The notes beneath the pieces are model-generated. The model had not been told where the DNA came from. It saw only the letters and a program-made list of their open reading frames with translations, and searched no databases. Shown one piece after another: positions 2,977-5,682 of a stretch of DNA of 64,000 nt (within the stretch, counting starts at the first letter, position 1; every line of letters begins with the position of its first letter). The DNA lies in the NCBI GenBank assembly GCA_016177775.1, contig JACOUQ010000024.1, positions 1 through 64,000 on the forward strand, written 5' to 3'. A program made the translations under genes and the position numbers. This stretch comes from Geobacter sp. (GTDB lineage: Bacteria; Desulfobacterota; Desulfuromonadia; Geobacterales; Geobacteraceae).

Positions 2977-4680
2977 TCAATCCGCCGGGGAAGCCCCGCC
3001 AGGCGCGGGATTGCCGGGATCGGAGGATTCATCCGGCCAGAACCGGCGGCGCAATTCCTCGATCAGGGGGGCCAGGCTTTTCCTGTCCCTGGCGCTGACA
3101 AGGAGCGCATTGTATCGCCGGGTAAGCTGCCGGACCTTCATTAATGCAAGGGGCTCCTTCCGCTTGAGATCGGCAAGAAGGTCTTCCTTGTTGAACACGA
3201 TGAGCCTCTGCTTGTCACCCAGCCCCAATTCGCCGAGGATTTGTTCCACCTGCTCGATCTGCTCGCCGCAGCGGTGGTTGGAAGCATCCACCACGTGCAG
3301 CAGGAGGTCCGCATCCTGCAACTCCTCCAGTGTCGCCTTGAATGCCCCAAGGAGAGACTTGGGGAGCGAGCGGATGAAGCCTACGGTGTCGGTGATGATC
3401 ACCTCCCGCTCCAGGGGGAAACGAAGCCGGCGCGTGGAGGTGTCGAGGGTGGCGAACAGGAGGTCCTCGGTGAAGACATCGCTCTTGGTGAGGCTGTTGA
3501 GAAGGGTCGACTTGCCGGCATTGGTGTATCCCACGATGGAGATAATCGGGAGGCCGGCCCTGACCCGCTTCTGCCGCCTTTCATAACGGCCGCGGGAGAG
3601 TTCAGCCAACTCCCGCTCCAGCCGGGCGATCCGGTCGCGAATGCGGCGCCGGTCTACCTCCAGCTTGGTTTCGCCGGGGCCACGTCCGCCAATACCACCC
3701 ATGAGGCGAGACATCTGCACCCCGCGCCCGGTCAGCCGCGGCAGGAGGTACTTGAGCTGGGCCAGCTCCACCTGCACCTTGCCGTCCAGGCTCTTGGCGC
3801 GGCGGGCGAAGATATCAAGGATCAACTGGCTCCTGTCGATGACCTTCAGCTCGGTCAGCTCCGAAATGGCGCGGACCTGGGCGGGAGAAAGCTCCTGGTC
3901 GAAGATGAGAATCGTGGCGCCCAGCTGCAGCGCCTTGATGATGATTTCCCGCAGCTTCCCCTCCCCCATGAGATAGCGGGGGTTGAACCGCCGGGGGCGC
4001 TGGATCATGGAATCGAGCACTGCGACGCCGGCAGTCCGCGCCAGCTCCTTCAGCTCCTCGATGGAATCCTCGGCCTCCTCCTGCTCCATCCGGGTCACGG
4101 CGATGAGAATGCCCCGCTCCTCGGCCCTGATTTCCCTCGTTTCCGGCAGGGCGCGCTCCAGCGACTGCTCGAGGGACTCGATGAAGAAGGCGAAATCCAT
4201 CTTGAAGCGGGAAAGGGGGACGGGTGGCTCCACCGCGTATGGTTCCCGGCGGGGTGCCGGCGGAACCAGGTTGGCAATCTGGATGGATGGGTGGCGCCCC
4301 CCTTCGGGAAGGAGAATGGCCGCCACCAGGTCGAGGCGCAGCAGCGCCAGGTCGTTCAGGTCATCCTGGGTAAGAGGTTCCTCGCGGAAATGGGTATGGA
4401 CGAGGCGCAGGCCGCGGCAGCGCTTCTTGCCCAGCGGATAGTCGGCGAGGTAGGGGATCACAAGCTCGCGTTCGCTGCCGATGACCACGTACTCCACAAT
4501 CCCTGCCCGGTTGATGAGAAGCCCCACCTGGCGCCCGGTCTCCATGGAGAGGTCCGCCATGCGCAGAGCGATTTCCGACGTAATCAGATCGGCAACCGGG
4601 ATCCGACGGTTGTAAAGCTTCTCCAGGGCTTTGACCTGGCTAGGCTTCAGGCCTGTGACATTGCCATGCAGCGGTTTTAT
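2977..4680 (-). CDS. hflX: Ribosome-associated GTPase HflX, apparently started at AUA
   Basis: HflX binds the 50S subunit and splits stalled or heat-damaged ribosomes. The family domain includes the glycine-rich GGIGGRGPGETKLE segment, then the Ras-like GTPase with G1 GYTNAGKST (about residue 385), G3 DTVGF and G4 NKED. The first in-frame ATG is at 4560, but homologous-looking sequence (KPLHGN..GLK) continues 40 codons upstream. That segment begins at an ATA codon (4680-4678) preceded at seven bases by a perfect GGAGG. No in-frame ATG, GTG or TTG lies between the upstream stop and 4560. I therefore place the start at the ATA; the fallback start is 4560 (527 residues). Confidence 0.92.
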   Translation of the reverse strand: MKPLHGNVTGLKPSQVKALEKLYNRRIPVADLITSEIALRMADLSMETGRQVGLLINRAGIVEYVVIGSERELVIPYLADYPLGKKRCRGLRLVHTHFREEPLTQDDLNDLALLRLDLVAAILLPEGGRHPSIQIANLVPPAPRREPYAVEPPVPLSRFKMDFAFFIESLEQSLERALPETREIRAEERGILIAVTRMEQEEAEDSIEELKELARTAGVAVLDSMIQRPRRFNPRYLMGEGKLREIIIKALQLGATILIFDQELSPAQVRAISELTELKVIDRSQLILDIFARRAKSLDGKVQVELAQLKYLLPRLTGRGVQMSRLMGGIGGRGPGETKLEVDRRRIRDRIARLERELAELSRGRYERRQKRVRAGLPIISIVGYTNAGKSTLLNSLTKSDVFTEDLLFATLDTSTRRLRFPLEREVIITDTVGFIRSLPKSLLGAFKATLEELQDADLLLHVVDASNHRCGEQIEQVEQILGELGLGDKQRLIVFNKEDLLADLKRKEPLALMKVRQLTRRYNALLVSARDRKSLAPLIEELRRRFWPDESSDPGNPAPGGASPAD

Positions 4681-4735
4681 CTCGTTGCCTCCGAAATGGC
4701 TTGAGCAGGGATGCAGTCCCTTCCATCATAACAAA

Positions 4736-4762
4736 AAGGGGCGACAATGCACGCCCCTGTAA
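4736..4762. repeat. GGGGCG palindromic dispersed repeat
   Basis: The sequence AGGGGCG...CGCCCCT followed by GTAA forms a short hairpin. It resembles the larger element at 21784-21860, which also starts GTAGGGGC and closes GCCCCT. Such GTAGGGGC palindromes are dispersed intergenic repeats; it could also serve as a weak terminator. Confidence 0.55.
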
Positions 4763-4790: not shown

Positions 4791-4876
4791 AACGCAAAGA
4801 CGCAGAGACGCTAAGAACTGCATTTTTTGGATCAATTCTTTCATTTGCGTCTTAGCGTCTTTGCGTCTTTGCGTTA
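4791..4876. repeat. Period-8 tandem array with inverted partner
   Basis: Left arm 4791-4818 repeats units of the type GACGCAAA/GACGCAGA. The right arm 4854-4876 is the complement, repeating TTTGCGTC. The arms flank about 35 AT-rich bases and together could form a long imperfect cruciform between hflX and fabI. Compare the period-9 pair at 29682-29817. Confidence 0.7.
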
Positions 4877-4911: not shown

Positions 4912-5682
4912 CTACGCTGTCACAGCGAAGTTGAACCCGCCGTCCACGAAGTGGGTCTCGCCGGTGACACCGCTGGCAAGGTCGGAGAGCATATAGAGTG
5001 CAGCCTTGCCCACATCCTCCTGGTCGACGGCGCGGCGCAGGGGTGCGTACTGGTCCATCAGTTTAATCTTCTCCTTGAGGCCCACAACCCCGGAGGCGGC
5101 CAGGGTCCTGATGGGCCCGGCCGAGACTGCGTTGACGCGGATACCCTTTTCGCCAAGCTCGGCGGCGAGATAACGGACCGAAGCCTCCAGGGCCGCCTTG
5201 GCCACACCCATGACATTGTAATTGGGAACCGAACGCTGAGAGCCGAGATAGGTCATGGTGACGATGCTGCCGCCGGGCTTCATCAGCGGGACGGCAGCAC
5301 GGGTGACCGCTACAAGAGAATAGGCGCTGATATCCATGGCCAGGCAGAAGCCGTCGCGGCTGGTCTGGCTGAAGGGGTTCTTGAGGTCGTCGCGATTGGC
5401 GAAGGCGAGCGAGTGGACCACGAAGTCGAGCCCTCCCCAGGCCTTCTCGACCTCGCTGAAACATGCCTCGATCTGCTCGTCGCTGGCCACGTCGCAGGGA
5501 AGGACCAGCTCGGCGTCGAGGCTCTCGGCCAACGGCCGCACTCGCTTCTCCAGGGCTTCATTGAGATAGGTGAAGGCCAGGGTCGCCCCCTCTTTGTGCA
5601 ACTGCTGGGCAATCCCCCAGGCGATGCTCATATCGTTCGCCACGCCCAGGATGATACCGCGTTTCCCTGTCATTAAACCCAT
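4912..5682 (-). CDS. fabI: Enoyl-[acyl-carrier-protein] reductase (NADH)
   Basis: FabI performs the last reduction of each fatty-acid elongation cycle. The 256-residue protein is a divergent short-chain dehydrogenase: the N-terminal nucleotide-binding motif is GKRGIILGVANDMSIAWGIA. The active site has the FabI-specific tyrosine in MTYLGSQR and the Y-x6-K pair in YNVMGVAK, followed by NAVSAGPIRT. Length and motifs are standard. A GGAGGAACGA ribosome site precedes the ATG. It is transcribed divergently from the HD-GYP gene, sharing a roughly 150-base promoter region. Confidence 0.97.
   Translation of the reverse strand: MGLMTGKRGIILGVANDMSIAWGIAQQLHKEGATLAFTYLNEALEKRVRPLAESLDAELVLPCDVASDEQIEACFSEVEKAWGGLDFVVHSLAFANRDDLKNPFSQTSRDGFCLAMDISAYSLVAVTRAAVPLMKPGGSIVTMTYLGSQRSVPNYNVMGVAKAALEASVRYLAAELGEKGIRVNAVSAGPIRTLAASGVVGLKEKIKLMDQYAPLRRAVDQEDVGKAALYMLSDLASGVTGETHFVDGGFNFAVTA

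Follow-up and report, generated by a model that had tools for sequence, protein, structure and literature searches.

At which codon does translation of hflX begin in this Geobacter genome, and what could the choice of that codon mean for the cell? The window analysed, a stretch of 64,000 nucleotides, carries on its minus strand a gene for the GTPase HflX whose conserved reading frame opens well ahead of any ATG, GTG or TTG, at a codon of the class AUA, AUC or AUU (together AUH). To our knowledge, very few bacterial genes have a conserved non-canonical start; infC, the gene for IF3, is the classical and widely shared example. HflX rescues stalled ribosomes and splits 70S particles, and IF3 blocks re-association (PMC9067457).

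Start site of hflX in the source genome

The product is identified as HflX by TIGR03156 (GTPase HflX; 439.7 bits against a cut-off of 216.75), together with PF13167, PF16360 and PF01926, which represent the HflX N-terminal, middle and G domains and score over their curated cut-offs. Read from the AUA to the stop, the coding sequence occupies positions 2977-4680 of the minus strand (567 codons), and its 5′ end on that strand is TTA TGA(4728-4726) TGG AAG GGA CTG CAT CCC TGC TCA AGC CAT TTC GGA GGC AAC GAG ATA(4680-4678) AAA CCG CTG CAT GGC AAT. The ATA (4678-4680, minus strand) is the first codon of the conserved frame and is preceded by the Shine-Dalgarno (SD) sequence GGAGG (4688-4692, minus strand) at a distance of 7 nt (CAACGAG), exactly as described in an earlier note on this DNA. 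Upstream, the frame is closed by an in-frame TGA (4726-4728, minus strand), from which 15 codons, none of them ATG, GTG or TTG, lead to the AUA. The first in-frame canonical codon, and the likely choice of an automatic gene caller, is the ATG at 4558-4560 (minus strand), 40 codons downstream of the ATA; no in-frame ATG, GTG or TTG lies between the TGA and this ATG, which bears out the earlier claim that the preceding stop is reached without meeting a canonical start.

Conservation of the start codon within the order

A protein search for hflX in 58 genomes of the order (Geobacterales) was positive in all but one, where the sole hit was a weak match to a different GTPase. The codon aligned with the source ATA is ATA, ATC or ATT in 56/56 relatives with a readable 5′ end (57/57 including the source genome itself). 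With members from the class search added, 67 distinct order-level 5′ ends were compiled, of which 23 have ATA, 31 ATC, 13 ATT and none a canonical codon; an ATG at this position, considered in the earlier note as a possible outcome of resequencing, is thus absent from the order, and AUH is kept instead. At least 17 changes of the third base of the start codon are required by the order tree, all of them between A, C and T, with no change to G; given that G makes up 33.5% of fourfold sites, the chance of seeing no change to G is about 0.001 by a rough calculation. The AUA start, which had been presented as a rarity, is therefore real, but it is no oddity of one genome.

Closely related pairs within the order locate the onset of coding constraint. 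In codon 1, bases 1 and 2 are invariant in such pairs and base 3 differs in 37.5%, like a synonymous site. The pN/pS ratio is 0.16 for codons 2-10, 0.18 for codons 2-30, 0.25 for codons 31-60 and 0.13 for codons 61-110, and it is 0.88 for the 12 codons upstream of the AUH codon. Because the ratio is 0.16 after the AUH codon and 0.88 before it, coding constraint begins exactly there, and the range of 0.16-0.25 over codons 2-60 confirms that the coding sequence extends 40 codons ahead of the first ATG, as had been suggested. In 18 genomes of the order a stop lies 2-8 codons upstream of the AUH codon (e.g. TAG CGG AGG CGC GCC ATC), so that an upstream canonical start is excluded, or nearly so, in these genomes. 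The first downstream in-frame canonical codon has no common position among the relatives, occurring anywhere from codon 4 to past codon 60, and the relatives do not share a start at the position of 4560. From these sequence comparisons, the start of hflX at the AUA codon 4680-4678 can be regarded as demonstrated.

Distribution across phyla and Shine-Dalgarno sequences

A wider set, obtained by a search of the phylum and one pattern scan of GTDB genomes, comprised at least 241 distinct hflX 5′ ends. Phylum names follow the database records, which include many metagenome bins. Among the matches listed, 157 of the 5′ ends are AUH (including six called by hand, which indels have displaced by one or two codons but which are still AUH) and 83 are canonical; the 241-row tree requires 10 or more switches from one state to the other. 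Also among the matches listed, AUH starts are widespread in Desulfobacterota and occur in 5/5 Nitrospirota, 9/11 Acidobacteriota and 8/15 Myxococcota, and in one record each of Nitrospinota, Deferribacterota and Deinococcota (Trueperaceae). Outside the source's own order, all 42 genes sampled from its class have canonical hflX starts (ATG, GTG or TTG), usually located two codons downstream and mostly lacking an SD sequence, and Desulfobacterales-named records mostly have ATG at codon 1 among the matches listed.

The AUH starts are nearly always accompanied by SD sequences. A match of at least 4 nt was present in 145 of the 151 AUH-start genes among the matches listed, with a spacing peak at 5-8 nt, against an in-gene background rate of 23%; canonical-start orthologues have an SD sequence at their own start in only 28/83, again among the matches listed. 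This contrast is large but involves few independent changes, with 4 supported pairs of which 3.1 go in the expected direction, and across these pairs it is not significant.

Start codons of infC, frr and lepA in the same genomes

In the source genome, the 5′ end of infC reads GGA GGT GGC GTC ATA GCT AAA CCC ACA GTC AAC ATC, ahead of the conserved N-terminal motif. The gene has an ATA start with GGAGGT in 44/44 genomes of the order (the source and 43 relatives), and ATA, ATC or ATT in 29/29 genomes of the class and phylum read by eye, including those with a canonical hflX, giving AUH in 73/73 genomes read. A correlation between the start states of hflX and infC was sought in these genomes, but infC is AUH everywhere it was read and so offers no variation with which the hflX state could be compared. 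In the same genomes frr is canonical (ATG or GTG) in 18/18 and the readable lepA genes have ATG, which rules out a general use of AUH by translation factors or by these genomes. The link of hflX to IF3, which the earlier note had suggested, is strengthened by this pattern, since infC of the same genome and its relatives starts with ATA and frr and lepA are canonical.

Proposed control of HflX synthesis by IF3

IF3 destabilises 30S complexes on codons other than AUG, GUG and UUG, which is the basis of infC autoregulation, and sigR of Streptomyces, with a GTC start, is a second experimentally shown target (PMC5472188). In Staphylococcus aureus, AUU and AUA starts give ~10% of the output of AUG (PMC13009471). 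By analogy with infC autocontrol, the AUH codon from which hflX is translated is probably subject to discrimination by IF3, so that the dose of HflX would be tied to free IF3. In the mechanism envisaged, the strong SD sequence would recruit the initiator fMet-tRNA to the AUA at 4680-4678, offsetting the weak start codon. IF3 would reject 30S complexes on AUH codons, keeping HflX synthesis low while IF3 exceeds free 30S subunits, and synthesis would rise as free IF3 drops relative to 30S subunits. The autoregulatory loop of IF3, which holds separated subunits apart, would thus also take in a GTPase that splits ribosomes, and selection would keep AUH, as a change to AUG would abolish control; the lack of AUG in the order lends this last point indirect support. 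Such control seems to be dispensable in some lineages, given that the sister orders and Desulfobacterales have canonical hflX starts while infC is AUH in the class and phylum genomes read.

Alternative explanations

The main rival accepts the AUH codon as the true start of hflX but has it hold HflX down as a fixed throttle, rather than sense the IF3 level. The AUU start of E. coli pcnB offers a precedent, according to the citing text in PMC1780047, and the lineages that have swapped to canonical codons, mostly without an SD sequence, could have reached an equally low output in a different way. A throttle could, however, be achieved by a weak SD sequence alone, yet a strong one is kept together with a weak codon, and infC has the same codon class in the same genomes. 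We consider a fixed throttle improbable, though it deserves far more weight than the remaining alternatives, all of which place the start elsewhere or dispute the codon itself.

That the frame is entered from upstream, by coupling or frameshifting from fabI or from an out-of-frame ATGATG near 4730, with the ATA read as isoleucine, is very unlikely: most of the relatives inspected do have a fabI-type gene upstream, at a gap of 12-231 nt, and the ATGATG does precede the source hflX, but gap, frame and upstream gene vary among relatives, and the reading is rejected by the stops no more than 8 codons upstream in 18 genomes of the order and by the absence of coding constraint upstream of the AUH codon. 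Slightly less probable still is a start at a downstream canonical codon such as the ATG at 4560, the gene callers' choice, which would leave the first 40 codons untranslated; it is contradicted by the constraint through codons 2-60, by the location of the SD sequence at the AUH codon and by the unshared position of the downstream canonical codon among relatives. A sequencing or assembly error that turned ATG into ATA might be suspected in a source assembly that is 85% complete, but AUH is found in all relatives examined, single-contig genomes included, and this explanation has a practically negligible chance of being correct.

Comparison with known systems

The closest parallel to hflX is infC of E. 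coli and Streptomyces, which has an AUU, AUC or AUA start and is under IF3 autocontrol (PMC5472188). The two genes share an AUH codon, a strong SD sequence at normal spacing, a role in the subunit-separation step and conservation across phyla. By contrast with the self-controlled infC, hflX would be acted on by IF3 in trans; the third base of its start codon varies between A, C and T, with reversion to ATG, GTG or TTG in some lineages, whereas infC is AUH in all the genomes read. Streptomyces sigR is a non-self gene under IF3 through a conserved non-canonical start (PMC5472188), as hflX would be, but its codon is GUC and is confined to one genus, and the effect of IF3 is demonstrated for sigR and proposed for hflX.

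The S. aureus genes ccpN (AUA) and cvfC1 (AUU) likewise combine a conserved AUH start with a strong SD sequence (PMC13009471), although these are other genes, conserved within staphylococci, with starts mapped by Ribo-Ret. The AUU start of E. coli pcnB (Binns and Masters 2002, as cited in PMC1780047 and PMC13009471) is described by the citing texts as an AUH start that limits expression, and differs in concerning one gene in E. coli that is interpreted as throttled. An AUH start has also been inferred for a translational GTPase in isolated species; lepA of the present genomes has ATG instead. In our literature search, which did not reach most subscription journals and is thus no proof of novelty, no report of an hflX gene starting at AUH came up.

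N-terminal extension of HflX

Residues ~1-180 of HflX (4141-4680, minus strand) form an N-terminal extension that is covered by no solved HflX structure. No Pfam family, JAB/MPN included, was found for residues 1-180 of the source protein, and other members gave only unrelated weak hits, up to E = 10. An AlphaFold2 model of the extension (pLDDT 81), searched with Foldseek, is predicted to have a JAMM/MPN-like fold; the best matches are weak, namely CSN5 (E 2.7e-3) and PfJAMM1 (probability 0.97, TM by target 0.49). The motif HTH(L)xxExL(S/T)xDDLTDL is conserved, with its H-T-H at residues 95-97 (4390-4398, minus strand), and HxH followed by a downstream D is present in 232/240 orthologues among the matches listed. 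The spacing of this motif appears to be shorter by one residue than that of classical JAMM proteins. The modelled resemblance to a JAMM/MPN domain is offered as a lead, not as a result, and because the JAMM catalytic Glu is not evident, the extension would likely be an inactive MPN-type domain.

Upstream region

A fabI-like enoyl reductase gene with an ATG start (4912-5682, minus strand) lies upstream of hflX, and such an ORF precedes hflX in most relatives inspected, at the gaps given above. The C-terminus of the source FabI is ...GGFNFAVTA, as against ...GYNIIGL in most relatives. Between the two genes is a terminator-like GC-rich hairpin followed by a T-run (4737-4758, minus strand), a feature found once against 0.5 expected, and hence not evidence of function. 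The hairpin, which precedes the start of hflX by ~57 nt, is a possible fabI terminator or attenuator, and leaves little room for an hflX promoter. The same intergenic region contains an inverted-repeat element, GCAAAGACGCnnAGACGCTAAG, at 4794-4872, for which 31 sites within 2 mismatches were found in the source genome and 0 with the reversed control. On the minus strand, the out-of-frame ATGATG at ~4730 begins a short reading frame, which in the source genome overlaps the start of hflX.

Significance

In several phyla the hflX start has stayed AUH despite drift of the third base. If the proposed control is true, hflX would be a second conserved case beside infC, in a ribosome-splitting GTPase, and a simple circuit would link the supply of IF3 to ribosome recycling or rescue. 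Whether infC and hflX make up an ancient two-gene IF3 regulon is, in our judgement, evenly balanced; such a regulon would be defined only by AUH starts, would couple ribosome splitting by HflX to anti-association and start selection by IF3 across several phyla, and would have escaped notice because such starts are shifted by gene callers. With an AUH start, automatic annotation of the hflX 5′ end would be wrong in every genome that retains the codon, and up to 40 or more conserved residues would be hidden.
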